The position numbers were made by a program, and so were the translations under genes. The notes beneath the pieces were generated by a model. It made no database searches and was not told the origin of the DNA. It worked only from the letters and a program-made list of their open reading frames with translations. This document shows, one piece after another, positions 21,410-31,707 of a stretch of 34,222 nucleotides of DNA; the first letter of the stretch is position 1; the number at the start of each line of letters is the position of its first letter. The stretch spans positions 1 to 34,222 of IMG/VR virus record IMGVR_UViG_3300006080_000308; one strand, written 5' to 3'. Source of the stretch: a virus.

Positions 21410-21492
21410 CAGATATCTTGAAAAGAAATTCCAACTTTTTAGGACTTTCTTAATGCGAGCAAAGAAATACAGTCCCAGAAAGGTTGAATAAG

Positions 21493-21918
21493 ATGTCTAT
21501 ACCTACAAAAGATAGCCTTAAACAAAAGGCAAAAACTGTCCGTAAATTTTTAAACGATAAATACCAAGTTGATGTTTCTCATGGTCACTGCATGGAAATC
21601 ATCTCGCAAGCCCTTGGTTTTAAAGACTGGAATACGGCTTCAGCAGCATTAAAACCAAAATTAAAGCAAGACGACTTACCACTTAAACTCAAGACCGTCG
21701 GCGACTTGAAAAAAGCATTAGAGCTATTTGATGACTCAGCCGCAATAGACGGTGATTATGAATTTAAGGTCAAAGACTTTATGGATGATATTGAACATGG
21801 AGATCTTGATGGCACAATCCATCAAGAATTCTCTCTTATCCTTAATAGCATTCAACCTGACGACATAGTCAGCTTTCAATTAGAACTCGAACACGAGAGC
21901 ATCAGTCATACCTTATAA
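21493..21918 (+). CDS. Plus-strand moron with Glyoxalase_8-like N-terminal domain
   Basis: The 141-residue protein begins with SIPTKDSLKQKAKTVRKFL and HGHCMEIISQALGFKDWNTASAAL. This matches the short N-terminal domain named Glyoxalase_8 or glyoxalase-related, found in mobile-element and phage proteins whose function is unclear. The rest is acidic with alternating helices and strands. The ATG at 21493 has AAAGG nine bases upstream and is preferred to a TTG three codons earlier. It runs opposite to the terminase and gpW genes and ends 10 bp from the terminase stop, tail to tail. No glyoxalase activity is implied. Confidence 0.78.
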   Translation: MSIPTKDSLKQKAKTVRKFLNDKYQVDVSHGHCMEIISQALGFKDWNTASAALKPKLKQDDLPLKLKTVGDLKKALELFDDSAAIDGDYEFKVKDFMDDIEHGDLDGTIHQEFSLILNSIQPDDIVSFQLELEHESISHTL

Positions 21919-25801: not shown

Positions 25802-27085
25802 TCAATTAACTTCATCTACTTTACTTTTTTTCCGAGATTTAGTCAATTCATCAAACTCTGTTTCTGTAGAATTTAAAACGGCTTTCTTCCCCGTAAATTC
25901 TTCCCAGCGTTTGACGATCACATCGACATATTTCGGATCAAGCTCAATCAATCGGGCGCGACGGCCTGTTTTTTCGCAAGCGATCATGGTTGATCCTGAA
26001 CCGCCAAACGCATCCAGCACAATATCCTTGGTTTTGCTGGAATTGTGAATGGCACGTTCTACCAACTCCACAGGCTTCATCGTCGGATGCAAATCATTTT
26101 TGACGGGCTTGTTCACAAACCAAACATCGCTTTGATCCCGGGCACCACACCAAAAATGCTCATGCCCATCTTTCCATCCATAAAGGATCGGCTCGTATTG
26201 GCGTTGATAATCTGCACGCCCTAGCGTGAAGGTGTTTTTTGCCCAGATGATAAAGGTTGACCACTTGCCACCAGCGCCAACAAAAGCACCATGCAACCTG
26301 TGAAGCTCCGATGAGCTCATGCACACATACATTGCGCCTTTGCACACCATCATCAGGTTGCTGCAAACATCATAGAGAAAATCGCCAAAGCCTTCGCCCA
26401 GATTATCATTTTGGATCGGGCGGGCTTTGCCACGCATTTTGTCTTTCATGGAATTGGCGTAATTGACGTTATAGGGCGGATCGGTAAACACCATGTCGGC
26501 CAGTTCTTCACCCAACAGGGCGTTGTAGCTGTCGATCATTGCGGAATCGCCGCACAGCACTTTATGATCGCCGCAAATCCAAATATCGCCGGGGACACTG
26601 ACAGGCGTTTCCGGTGCTTCGGGTGCGGTATCCTCATCGGTCAAACCGCCAGAGGCATTGGCATCATCCAAAAACAGATTGTCCAATTCCTCAGCATTAA
26701 AGCCCAGCAGATCAATATTGAAATCCAGATCCTCCAGCGCCGATAATTCCTCGCGTAGGAGGCTTTCATCCCAACCGGCATTTTCTGCGATTTTATTATC
26801 GGCAATTACCAGTGCACGACGTTGCGCTTCATTCAAATGTTTCAGGCGAATGGTTGGCACGTTTTTCATGCCCAGCAGTTTTGCCGCCATCAAACGGCCA
26901 TGCCCAGCGATGATGATATTATCCTCACCTAGCAGAATAGGATTCACAAAACCAAATTCCGTCATGGAGGCGGCAATTTGCGCCACTTGCGTATCAGAAT
27001 GCGTGCGTGCATTTTTGGCATAAGGGATCAGCTCATCAACCGATACATGCTCGATTTTTAAGTCTTTTGCTTTCGCATCAGTCAT
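25802..27085 (-). CDS. ParB-domain DNA methyltransferase (beta-class N4/N6)
   Basis: The 427-residue protein has a ParB/sulfiredoxin-like N-terminal domain (about 10-120, with ELIPYAKNARTHS and GHGRLMAAKLLG). A linker follows, then a SAM-dependent methyltransferase. The catalytic TDPPY is at 201-205 and the SAM-binding AFGGSGST is near 359-366. The DPPY-first order places it in the beta class, which modifies adenine N6 or cytosine N4. Such fusions are common in prophages and often protect phage DNA. It lies directly upstream of the nuclease-like gene. The C-terminus is lysine-rich. The leader carries repeats of TGCGTAC. Confidence 0.9.
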   Translation of the reverse strand: MTDAKAKDLKIEHVSVDELIPYAKNARTHSDTQVAQIAASMTEFGFVNPILLGEDNIIIAGHGRLMAAKLLGMKNVPTIRLKHLNEAQRRALVIADNKIAENAGWDESLLREELSALEDLDFNIDLLGFNAEELDNLFLDDANASGGLTDEDTAPEAPETPVSVPGDIWICGDHKVLCGDSAMIDSYNALLGEELADMVFTDPPYNVNYANSMKDKMRGKARPIQNDNLGEGFGDFLYDVCSNLMMVCKGAMYVCMSSSELHRLHGAFVGAGGKWSTFIIWAKNTFTLGRADYQRQYEPILYGWKDGHEHFWCGARDQSDVWFVNKPVKNDLHPTMKPVELVERAIHNSSKTKDIVLDAFGGSGSTMIACEKTGRRARLIELDPKYVDVIVKRWEEFTGKKAVLNSTETEFDELTKSRKKSKVDEVN

Positions 27086-27484: not shown

Positions 27485-28420
27485 TTATACCAGAATAGCT
27501 ATAATTTCTTTCAAAGAGTTTAGAGCATCATCAAACGATATTTGCTCATCCTCATCAGCATAAGACATGTTCTGAACAAACTGCCTATATTCTTCTCGAT
27601 AGGCGTCGTCAGTTGAAAGCATTTCATACGCTTTCGTTAAACGGTCTACAATTTTCATATTGGCTATAATATCACCACCACGGCGACTTTGATCACTTTG
27701 CAGTGACTGTTGAGCGCAGCCAATAAAAATATCCTTTTCTTCCCAAATTGAGGATTTAAGAGCGGCTAAATCGTGGAGATGGCGGATCATTGTAGGATCA
27801 TCATTATCCGAATTCCTGTCTCTAACAACCACTCGCCATGTTAATGCACTCACTTTATCAGAGGCTGTTTCAATAGGTGAAATGCAGGTTATTTGTGTTT
27901 CTGGATCGTCACCTGATAATTCGGACACGATAGATCGTACATCCCGCTTTACAAGTGGTAATCTGTGTTCAGCAAATGTCATTTCTAGTTGTAGGTATGG
28001 GCGCAAGAACTCTTGTTCAAAACCCATGTCATATTGGACTGGGGCTTTGAAGAAACGATGGCTGTCACCACGCTGAACTTGTTCATCTTCAATTCTAAAG
28101 CGTGGATCTGATATGATATGCGAGATGACAGATTTTCTAAACGAGCGCCTACCACCAACAGATACTTGATCCAGTGAGCATAAAATGAAATCCAAATCTT
28201 CTGAGAAGCGTTTTATTAAACCAAAACCTTTTGACAGACTGGTTCCACCGGAGAAAACGATGTCAACACGGCGGTCATTTTCAAAATTGCCAATAGATTT
28301 TAGTAGCTGTACAGCATACCAATCTTTTTCAATGAACGCAGGATCAATACCTGTTTCAGCAGCAGCTTCAAGAATGACGTCACGATTAAGCATATTGTTC
28401 AAAGGATACGTACTTTCCAT
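27485..28420 (-). CDS. AbiEii-family nucleotidyltransferase toxin (second AbiE system)
   Basis: The 311-residue protein (from ATG 28420) carries EKDW (31-34), then FSGGTSLSK (56-64) and EDLDF (74-78), the nucleotidyltransferase core of AbiEii/AbiGii toxins. Its N-terminus, with RDVILEAAAETGIDPAFIEKDWY, is typical of the group that pairs with DUF6088 antitoxins. It differs from the toxin at 13133-14035 throughout, so the two are not a duplication. It overlaps its antitoxin. The frame is open to a GTG at 28456, and a further ATG lies at 28393; none has a clear ribosome-binding site, so the exact start is uncertain. A terminator follows at 27295-27333. Confidence 0.9.
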   Translation of the reverse strand: MESTYPLNNMLNRDVILEAAAETGIDPAFIEKDWYAVQLLKSIGNFENDRRVDIVFSGGTSLSKGFGLIKRFSEDLDFILCSLDQVSVGGRRSFRKSVISHIISDPRFRIEDEQVQRGDSHRFFKAPVQYDMGFEQEFLRPYLQLEMTFAEHRLPLVKRDVRSIVSELSGDDPETQITCISPIETASDKVSALTWRVVVRDRNSDNDDPTMIRHLHDLAALKSSIWEEKDIFIGCAQQSLQSDQSRRGGDIIANMKIVDRLTKAYEMLSTDDAYREEYRQFVQNMSYADEDEQISFDDALNSLKEIIAILV

Positions 28421-28799
28421 TATAACCAATTTTACGAGAAATACGTCCTTTAACACCGATCACACGCCCTGTTGGAACTTGTGTTGACTTTCCTTCATTG
28501 TAAAATTTTTGTGCCTTTGACGGCATGATCTTAATGCCCAATTTATTTAGGGCTTCTTGAGCTAACTCTGGCAGAGGCTTTTCAGGTATTGTTTTCCCGC
28601 TGAGTGCAGATTGTTTGGCACGTGCATATACGCCATAGCCAATATTAATCAATAAGCCTTTTTGTACCAACTGTCGTAGAATACGACCAACTTGGTCATA
28701 GCCCCCAATGTCTTCAAAATCTTGGCGCACAAAGACGCTTAACGCGCTACGTTTTACGCGGTAAGTGATTTTTCCTTCTAATGTGTTTTTAATCGCCAT
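28386..28799 (-). CDS. DUF6088 / AbiEi-type antitoxin (second AbiE system)
   Basis: The 137-residue protein is the antitoxin partner and probable autorepressor. The pattern ALSVFVRQDFEDIGGYDQVGRILRQLVQKGLLINIGYGVYARAKQSALSG is that of DUF6088 with its N-terminal winged helix (about 18-70). The C-terminal half (80-137) is strand-rich. It starts with an AAGGA site directly downstream of two 17-bp direct repeats that may be its operator. It overlaps the toxin gene. Confidence 0.9.
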   Translation of the reverse strand: MAIKNTLEGKITYRVKRSALSVFVRQDFEDIGGYDQVGRILRQLVQKGLLINIGYGVYARAKQSALSGKTIPEKPLPELAQEALNKLGIKIMPSKAQKFYNEGKSTQVPTGRVIGVKGRISRKIGYNGKYVSFEQYA

Positions 28800-29522: not shown

Positions 29523-29705
29523 TTAGCCTTTTGATTGCTGTCCAGACTCATAAGCAGCTTCTAGAGCATCTTTCAAAGACCAAACAGCCACCTCTTGAAA
29601 ATCAAGGCTGTCGCTGTTTCGAGTTTCCAGCGTTTCAAGGTTCAAATGCTTGTTGGCGATTTCAGTTAAAAGCTGATCGATTTGTTGTTGGGTGGCTTTA
29701 GGCAT
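29523..29705 (-). CDS. DUF6900-type small protein
   Basis: The 60-residue protein reads IANKHLNLETLETRNSDSLDFQEVAVWSLKDALEAAYESG. This is the pattern I associate with DUF6900, a small helical protein found in alphaproteobacterial phages and plasmids with no known activity. The ATG at 29705 has GGAGG six bases upstream. It overlaps the last 8 bp of the preceding gene, so the two are translated together. It is downstream of promoter copy B, in the same operon as the 72-residue gene. Confidence 0.75.
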   Translation of the reverse strand: MPKATQQQIDQLLTEIANKHLNLETLETRNSDSLDFQEVAVWSLKDALEAAYESGQQSKG

Positions 29706-29916
29706 ATTCACCCTCCTTGAAAACACGGTCGGTGATGTTTTGAAGGTCGTTTGCAATACCTGCTAAGCTGCCAGCGTCAGCCCAGTTAACGCTGTCTGGG
29801 TTGGCTTCAAAGTGATCTGCACTTGCTGCTTGCAAGCGCTCCAGCATCTCGTCAATGCGGGCTTTGTGCTCTATAAAGGCGTCTAGTGCTGTTCGTTTTT
29901 CTTGTGTGTTTGTCAT
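29698..29916 (-). CDS. Small conserved phage-operon protein, unknown function
   Basis: The 72-residue acidic protein is predicted to be all helical (HKARIDEMLERLQAASADHFEANPDSVNWADAGSL). It resembles small proteins commonly found before DUF6900 genes. No catalytic motif is visible. It has a very strong AGGAGG site and lies directly behind promoter copy B, so it is the first gene of a short operon with the DUF6900 gene. The two frames overlap by eight bases. Confidence 0.75.
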   Translation of the reverse strand: MTNTQEKRTALDAFIEHKARIDEMLERLQAASADHFEANPDSVNWADAGSLAGIANDLQNITDRVFKEGEYA

Positions 29917-29939: not shown

Positions 29940-29981
29940 AGTAACACTTCATTTGCGGGACTTATCAAGTGAATAAGATTC
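29940..29981 (-). promoter_or_regulatory. Shared promoter-like element, copy B
   Basis: On the minus strand TTGATA (29963-29968) and GTTACT (29940-29945) are 17 bp apart, the -10 being 24 bp before the ATG at 29916. TTATTCAC precedes the -35. ACTTGATAAGT over the -35 is a palindrome, so a repressor may bind there. Confidence 0.65.
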
Positions 29982-30003: not shown

Positions 30004-30158
30004 TTATCCACAGGGTGTTTTGTTTTTTCTTCTAGTTATTTTTTATTCTTATTTTTTCTATTTATATGGATACGCCACTTTCGGCACATCTAGATCGGCC
30101 ACTTTTGGCACCTCTGGATGTGCCACTTCTGGCGTATCATGTATAAAATTGTGGATAA
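30004..30158. other. Candidate phage replication origin: DnaA boxes, iterons, T-rich tract
   Basis: Perfect DnaA boxes TTATCCACA lie at 30004-30012 (plus) and 30150-30158 (minus). Between them is a T-rich stretch (30015-30069). Next come three repeats of period 24 bp starting GCCACTT at 30074, 30098 and 30122, each holding a GCCA....TGGC dyad. The iterons lie in the 3' end of a winged-helix gene, as lambda iterons lie in O. Confidence 0.6.
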
Positions 30159-30429
30159 GTAACGACTCATCCAGCAGGTACATATTGGACTGTCCACGCC
30201 CACGGCGCCGTGTTTCCAAAAGAACATGGAATTCAAGCTCTGATATGAAACGTTGCACCGCACGCACAGACATACCCAGCTCAACGGCCAGAGTGGCCAA
30301 TTTGGGGTAACATTTACCAGTTTTACCCGCATATTGAATCAATCGAGCACAGCACAACTTTGCGCCGTGACTCAGGTTACGGTTGCGCAAAATATGATTC
30401 GGAATGGGAGCAAAAGTTGAAGTGGTCAT
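30058..30429 (-). CDS. Winged-helix replication-type protein
   Basis: The 123-residue protein has a winged helix (about 15-80, with LSHGAKLCCARLIQYAGKTGKCYPKLATLAVELGMSVRAVQRFISELE) of the wHTH_36 type. Lambda O and plasmid Rep proteins have similar DNA-binding domains. The C-terminus (about 98-123) is a VPKVA-type repeat (PEVPKVADLDVPKVA) encoded by 24-bp iterons. It may bind those iterons and initiate replication. It overlaps the DUF6362 gene as ATGA. No ATPase motif is present, so a helicase must come from elsewhere. Confidence 0.75.
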   Translation of the reverse strand: MTTSTFAPIPNHILRNRNLSHGAKLCCARLIQYAGKTGKCYPKLATLAVELGMSVRAVQRFISELEFHVLLETRRRGRGQSNMYLLDESLLIHNFIHDTPEVAHPEVPKVADLDVPKVAYPYK

Positions 30430-30809
30430 ATGCGGGCTGCAATCTTACCTAAAGCGGTTTTATACATCTCCCACGCTTTGGTGCGACCAACGCCAAAGGT
30501 GGCGCAGATAACCTTCCAGCGCACGCGCTCGGCACGTAGCCAGACGATTTTACGTTCAACAGGCTCCAGCATTGGTAGCCACTTAAACAGCACTTCTTCC
30601 ATTTCGTCTATTTCCTCGGGAAGTGGTGGGAAACGAACCTCTTTTTCCATATTAAGCAGTTCAACTGTATCATGCTTGATGGCTGGCCAAGTGTTAAAAT
30701 AACCCTGAACTTTTTCTTCAGGTAGCTTGCGCAGTGTACGCTCCGCTTCACGAATACGTTCTTCAACGTACTTTTGGCGAATAGTTATGTCTTGCTCATT
30801 TTTCTTCAT
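30426..30809 (-). CDS. DUF6362-type protein with C-terminal HTH
   Basis: The 127-residue protein is helical and charged. The C-terminal part, with LEPVERKIVWLRAERVRWKVICATFGVGRTKAWEMYKTALGKIA, looks like a sigma-4-like helix-turn-helix, the hallmark of DUF6362 in alphaproteobacterial phages. The ATG at 30809 has GGAGG six bases upstream, which decides against the longer open frame to 30899. It overlaps the 82-residue gene and, at its end, the winged-helix gene. A regulatory DNA-binding role is inferred. Confidence 0.78.
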   Translation of the reverse strand: MKKNEQDITIRQKYVEERIREAERTLRKLPEEKVQGYFNTWPAIKHDTVELLNMEKEVRFPPLPEEIDEMEEVLFKWLPMLEPVERKIVWLRAERVRWKVICATFGVGRTKAWEMYKTALGKIAARI

Positions 30810-31134: not shown

Positions 31135-31707
31135 TTATTTTTTCAAAAGGCATTCCTCCAGATAGTTTCTCAAGCGTTTAGCTCGGCTGGACATCGTAGT
31201 TCGTGGAACACCCACAAGCTTTGCAGCTTCAGTAATCGAATTTTTTGTAAGCAGGTTGAACGTTTCTTTGATATCGTTAGGCATTTCTGAGAGAATTCTC
31301 CTAAGGTCTAAATCAAACTCTAGAGATTCAGCGCTTAAGTCTGCAAAAACATCGCCACAGAAAGAATCTGCGCTTGCTAGAATATCGATAAGATCAATAG
31401 CTTCATCAACATCACCGACTGGAGATGAAAGGGAAATATCCGGCGCACCAGTCCAGCGTTTTTGCGAAGTGGCGACATCTACAAGATAGCGAGCATGATT
31501 GTTAATAATAGCTTTGATGAAGCTCCGGCGATCTCCTTTACTTTCATCAAAGTGAGGCCAGCCTTGAAGATAAGCTAACATGAGATCTTGGCTTAAATCC
31601 TCGTAATCATCTAAATTGAAAAATGGTGATTTAGTAAGTTTTCTTGCTTTATAGGCAATAAAAAAAGCAGCGTAGCCATCTACGCTGCCATAAATATTCT
31701 TAGGCAT
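31135..31707 (-). CDS. Sigma-70-like (ECF-type) RNA polymerase sigma factor
   Basis: The 190-residue protein has a sigma-2-like segment (about 30-75, DYEDLSQDLMLAYLQGWPHFDESKGDRRSFIKAIINNHARYLV) that would contact RNA polymerase and the -10 element. A sigma-4-like helix-turn-helix (about 145-185, LPN-type start then SITEAAKLVGVPRTTMSSRAKRLRNYL) would bind the -35. The length fits ECF factors. It could direct transcription of phage genes, for example from the three shared promoter elements. That link is a guess. A hairpin at 31718-31744 lies just ahead of the ATG. Confidence 0.72.
   Translation of the reverse strand: MPKNIYGSVDGYAAFFIAYKARKLTKSPFFNLDDYEDLSQDLMLAYLQGWPHFDESKGDRRSFIKAIINNHARYLVDVATSQKRWTGAPDISLSSPVGDVDEAIDLIDILASADSFCGDVFADLSAESLEFDLDLRRILSEMPNDIKETFNLLTKNSITEAAKLVGVPRTTMSSRAKRLRNYLEECLLKK

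Follow-up and report, generated by a model that had tools for sequence, protein, structure and literature searches.

A 34,222-base IMG/VR virus record, analysed here over its whole length (the window), carries a candidate theta-type replication origin at the 3' end of a phage's own initiator gene. We put the probability at roughly three in four that the window comes from a temperate tailed phage with such an origin, that the origin is of the lambda O/RepA_N kind, that its initiator is a minimal one and that host DnaA acts on two boxes flanking the initiator's sites; binding, melting, DnaA dependence and replication itself would follow by analogy with known systems.

The candidate origin and its gene

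The window holds the head, tail and packaging genes of a tailed phage, almost all of them minus-strand genes, with a large serine recombinase on its right-hand side; it represents an environmental phage whose host was probably an alphaproteobacterium. The leftward early operon runs from a sigma-like gene through an 82-aa gene, a DUF6362 gene, a winged-helix gene and small genes to a Cro/CI-type regulator. The stop codon of the DUF6362 gene overlaps the start of the winged-helix gene, and the next gene past the candidate origin (29698-29916) lies ~160-220 bp downstream of the dyads listed below. The same operon encodes a small sigma-70 region 2-like protein (31135-31707), kept in the close relative L002 described below, which is a possible phage transcription switch. 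A DNA methyltransferase that carries a ParB-like domain at its N terminus (25802-27085) is also kept in L002. Elsewhere, an AbiEii-type nucleotidyltransferase toxin gene stands beside a DUF6088 gene (27485-28799), the two likely forming a phage-borne type IV toxin-antitoxin pair, and a Glyoxalase_8-like open reading frame (ORF) adjoins the terminase at 21484-21918 on the plus strand, opposite to the phage genes. The features of the candidate origin are as follows.

30426..30809, minus strand: DUF6362 gene (Pfam DUF6362, 3.2e-30), directly upstream of the winged-helix gene in the same early operon
30058..30429, minus strand: winged-helix (HTH_36) putative initiator gene, 123 aa plus stop (Pfam HTH_36, 1.2e-9)
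30150..30158, minus strand: DnaA box 1, a perfect TTATCCACA within the coding sequence; on the gene strand the first iteron core begins 25 bp after the start of this box
30112..30135, minus strand: iteron 1 in gene-strand order, core GCCAGAAGTGGC at 30122-30133
30088..30111, minus strand: iteron 2, core GCCAAAAGTGGC at 30098-30109
30064..30087, minus strand: iteron 3, core GCCGAAAGTGGC at 30074-30085
30013..30063, no strand assigned: candidate unwinding tract, A/T-rich, that runs from the stop codon up to DnaA box 2, T-rich on the plus strand and A-rich on the gene strand
30004..30012, plus strand: DnaA box 2, a perfect TTATCCACA in the opposite orientation to box 1, 121 bp from the first core
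29961..29981, no strand assigned: 21-bp run GAATCTTATTCACTTGATAAG (gene strand), just past DnaA box 2 and identical in L002

Read along the gene strand, the order is a forward DnaA box, three cores, the stop codon, the A-rich tract and a reversed DnaA box, which bears out an earlier note's description of two perfect, oppositely oriented boxes flanking a T-rich tract and iterons. The sequence TTATCCACA occurs exactly twice in the 34,222 bases. Since shuffled windows contained a mean of 0.35 copies and reached two anywhere in the window in 4 of 100 shuffles, the pair is by itself only mildly unusual, and it is the placement that carries weight. The exact pattern GCCRRAAGTGGC is found on the minus strand at the three core positions and nowhere else in the window, in exact 24-bp steps. 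The earlier note had assigned GCCA....TGGC dyads to three 24-bp iterons; the three units stand, but the dyad is exact in two of them, and the third (30074-30085) reads GCCA....CGGC on the plus strand. As that note had also proposed, the iterons encode VPKVA-type repeats (TPEVA, VPKVA and VPKVA) at the end of the protein, with 4 codons between the last copy and the stop, as in L002.

The A/T tract adjoins the iterons but lies outside the gene; only three other 50-bp duplexes in the window are less stable, and its A+T content reaches 93% over 30 bp. The 21-bp run beyond DnaA box 2 contains a near-DnaA sequence, TTATTCACT, and the inverted repeat CTTAT.......ATAAG. GC skew was monotonic over the whole window and located no origin.

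The assignment of the site to a winged-helix gene holds up on the protein side as well, since, beyond the HTH_36 match, the 123-aa protein matches PHROG families of replication initiation (3.4e-9) and O-like proteins (1.1e-8), in both cases through its N-terminal winged-helix-turn-helix (wHTH) domain only. In a structure model built from a ten-sequence alignment, confidence was good for the wHTH part and low for the tail, which is probably disordered. The top PDB fold matches were 4pql, 4pt7 and 5kbj (Foldseek best E, 4e-4; VIA Z, 10.3), although repressors followed close behind these initiator entries (Z of 8-9.9 versus 10.3) and wHTH folds are very common. We take these three entries to be RepA_N-type Rep structures, that is, plasmid initiators. 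The protein had no sequence-level match to RepA_N in Pfam. A lambda O structure was absent from the VIA alignment list, which is no evidence against kinship.

Conservation in a close relative and in other phages

The sole close relative in the collections searched, L002, is an alphaproteobacterial metagenome-assembled genome (MAG) whose protein is 85% identical to that of the window. Since the early module is shared (79.5% DNA identity over 2.2 kb) and related recombinase and methylase genes lie on either side of it, L002 is probably a related prophage. The DUF6362 gene (2.3e-27 in L002) and its small neighbours are kept there alongside the origin. Both DnaA boxes are identical at 9 of 9 positions, box 1 within a 19-bp identical run, and the A/T tract is identical at 46 of 51 positions, including a 28-bp identical run. 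A comparison of iterons in related prophages, which the earlier note had proposed as a check, found all three kept: cores 1, 2 and 3 are identical at 12, 11 and 10 of 12 positions, with every change at the two R positions, whereas one inter-core spacer keeps just 5 of 12 bases. The wHTH part shows the codon-position pattern of a protein (85/96/69% identity). Since this pattern is absent from the tail (82/85/85%), the end of the gene appears to be conserved as DNA and not as codons, a contrast that involves small numbers (~33 codons), there being a single close relative.

We scanned 2.9 million viral contigs, using DNA alone, for two copies of GCC NNAAG TGGC spaced 4-34 bases apart. This blind scan returned 23 stretches, 15 of which lay in ORFs matching wHTH profiles that were partly seeded from the test loci themselves. 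A weak PHROG initiator match in L007 and a wHTH recognised by eye in L017 bring the winged-helix or initiator loci to 15-17 of 23. PHROG, an independent library, by itself assigned replication-initiation or DnaD-like families to 9 of the 23. When the same pattern was reversed without complementing it, none of 44 stretches had a wHTH match, and tape-measure and head genes were hit most often. The core copies fell into reading frames 2, 0 and 1 in the proportion 25/12/7, giving the peptides PKVA, AKSG or QKW, and frames were mixed within a single gene in 13 of 18 genes. Because the core is used in three frames that mix within genes, which selection on a peptide cannot produce, we infer that the DNA site, and not the peptide, is what is kept.

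A second scan, for three GCCA-N4-TGGC dyads with any centre, yielded 76 new loci, of which 18 are further wHTH genes with the dyads just 3' of the wHTH domain and the remainder largely tandem repeats. Most relatives run on for 48-277 aa past the dyads, although L151 has just 16 codons left. Their C-terminal parts match DnaA_N in L094 (1.4e-7), DnaT weakly in L018, and DnaD-like or O-like families elsewhere. The 123-aa protein of the window, by contrast, ends with the iterons and has no counterpart to the C-terminal domain found beyond them in most relatives. The L094 gene (7701-8819, minus strand), likewise from a phage, contains three dyads of the TGCTCAAAATGAGCA type and encodes a wHTH initiator whose C-terminal part is DnaA domain I (the Pfam DnaA_N match); this initiator seems to carry DnaA's own helicase-recruiting domain. 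The C-terminal end encoded in L145 resembles that of L094 by eye and had no Pfam match.

The 123-aa sequence found no relative in a protein search of the viral contigs, and a degenerate CYPK motif search yielded only two further wHTH genes. In 385 genomes of the alphaproteobacterial class, the protein query matched nine distant wHTH sequences. The two of these that we inspected carry dyads of other sequence: L009 (197-931, minus strand) has them in the gene tail (CGACAAATATGTCG, with HTTNM peptide repeats), and L008 (1373-1836, minus strand) has them just after the stop codon (TGTC.AATATTTTGACA type); the others were uninformative. The iteron pattern itself occurred in the 385 genomes in the known relative and in a kinase gene of G008 only, the latter judged to be a chance match. 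In gene O of Escherichia phage SKA5 (L087, 1711-1908), an O-like gene, 15-bp repeats of TCAAAATCTGACCCG type form an array that probably represents its iterons.

DnaA boxes recur near these iterons. Across 18 loci, TTWTNCACA occurred 16 times in the 3,960 bp around the iterons versus 9 times in 202,259 bp elsewhere, a ~90-fold enrichment; many boxes in this count have the relaxed TTTTCCACA sequence, and homology among several of the loci means that they are not independent events. Positions relative to the first core also recur in several loci, at about -36 and at +110 to +121; those of the window are -25 and +121, and L004, L022 and L023 have boxes at +110 to +120. Because several loci are homologous and half of them have no box near the iterons (boxes in 9 of 18), this distribution shows DnaA as a recurrent, not a universal, putative partner.

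Proposed mechanism and alternative readings

By analogy with lambda O and pSK41 Rep, the 123-aa winged-helix protein would distort the DNA on binding the three GCCNNAAGTGGC dyads of its own gene and would help to melt the adjoining A/T-rich tract. Host DnaA on the two flanking boxes would perform or aid the melting and bring in the host helicase. Since the initiator has no recruiting domain and no phage loader was recognised, DnaA is the most economical source of helicase; we give about even odds that the helicase arrives through host DnaA and not through an unrecognised phage partner, which an initiator of this kind could need.

The alternative that survives best keeps the first half of this scheme. 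Here the site is an origin, but an unrecognised phage protein (for instance DUF6362 or the 82-aa or 72-aa neighbour) loads the helicase, and the part played by the DnaA boxes is minor or regulatory. The conservation of DUF6362 and the small neighbours with the origin in L002 would suit such a loader, as would the half of related loci that have no near DnaA box and the C-terminal domain that most relatives possess. We nevertheless consider it rather unlikely, given that both boxes are perfect and fully conserved where the surrounding DNA drops to ~80% identity, and that no neighbour scanned matches a loader or helicase family in Pfam or PHROG.

A transcriptional role is a good deal less probable. 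The winged-helix protein would then be a regulator and the dyads its operators, serving the downstream small genes or its own operon, with no origin present; the protein is short and repressor-like, its fold is shared with many repressors, and the dyads do lie upstream of a gene. Against this, the best family matches of the protein are to replication initiation and O-like proteins, the families matched by relatives that have the same dyads within the gene are replication-initiation, DnaD-like or DnaT-like ones, and the conserved surroundings of the dyads include DnaA boxes and an A/T tract. The single promoter-like site that overlaps them is on the other strand, and such sites occur at chance level. 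We rejected as very improbable the idea that PKVA linker repeats are kept for protein function with the DNA repeat as a by-product, since the single frame and 8-aa period of all copies in the window and L002 give way to mixed frames within single genes of other phages, and the tail loses the codon-position signature and is predicted to be disordered.

Returning to the origin reading, we tentatively suggest a wider generalisation, for which the odds are somewhat below even. The window protein may represent a minimal class of initiator, in which a wHTH dimer has its own iteron array as gene tail and leaves melting and helicase loading to host DnaA via in-gene boxes. A widespread, unnamed iteron code, GCC[A/G]-N4-TGGC, may be common to very divergent HTH_36/DnaD-like phage initiators, in any frame and with interchangeable helicase-recruiting C termini (DnaA_N-, DnaT- or DnaD-like, or none). 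The open-access literature searched did not contain the 11-12 base core in connection with replication, nor did it describe a minimal initiator with conserved DnaA boxes or a frame-independent GCCA-N4-TGGC core across divergent phage initiators. Such a DNA signature would find phage origins and name initiators without protein homology, which is useful where phage replication genes are annotated merely as helix-turn-helix proteins, and the window would offer a test case for the minimum that an initiator needs.

Comparison with known origins

In-gene origins are already well known from lambda, the O-like gene of MD8 (PMC8508860), RepA_N plasmids and repC. The XkdB-like gene of the Geobacillus phages phiOH2 and PK5.2 resembles the window gene in having in-gene dyads (GTGCCAAAAATGGCAC) directly after the wHTH and then an A/T-rich stretch; it differs in its 33-bp spacing, its long C-terminal part and the IstB/DnaC-like ATPase gene that comes after it. 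In the iteron plasmids P1, F, RK2 and pSC101, the iterons are not part of the initiator gene, and the initiator belongs to the Rep_3 type, not to HTH_36. These plasmids share with the window the combination of iterons, an A/T tract and DnaA boxes (PMC3155836). The repABC plasmids are alphaproteobacterial and place oriV, with an A/T-rich region, inside the initiator gene, but repC has neither iterons nor DnaA boxes, both of which the window has, and RepC is much longer (PMC3155836).

RepA_N-type Rep of pSK41 binds Rep boxes central in rep through its N-terminal domain and has a linker encoded by the origin (PMC5703833). The top fold matches of the window protein, closely followed by other wHTH proteins, are the entries that we assign to this group. 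The pSK41 protein differs as a 319-aa protein of a Gram-positive plasmid with a DnaD-like C-terminal domain, whereas the window protein ends after the iterons.

The lambda iteron, like that of the window, is a dyad with an A-rich centre. The lambda origin comprises four 18-bp iterons and a 38-bp AT tract within O (PMC3349717), and lambda O binds these iterons beside the tract that unwinds (PMC3349717, PMC7466680). The likeness to lambda that the earlier note drew gains support from the conserved relative, the blind DNA scan and the fold match to RepA_N initiators, with binding and initiation argued by analogy. Shared features are an O-like initiator family and imperfect inverted-repeat iterons within the gene, right after the DNA-binding domain and followed by an A/T tract. 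The window differs in that its three units are 24 bp long, have another sequence and close the gene, the A/T tract lying beyond the stop codon. The lambda origin as described is without DnaA boxes (PMC3349717, PMC7466680), whereas the window has two that are perfect and conserved. The window initiator also has no counterpart of the C-terminal half that recruits P/DnaB, and no P-like helicase loader was found among the window genes scanned. If DnaA does replace the missing domain of lambda O, the step from a plasmid-like to a lambda-like origin becomes directly testable.
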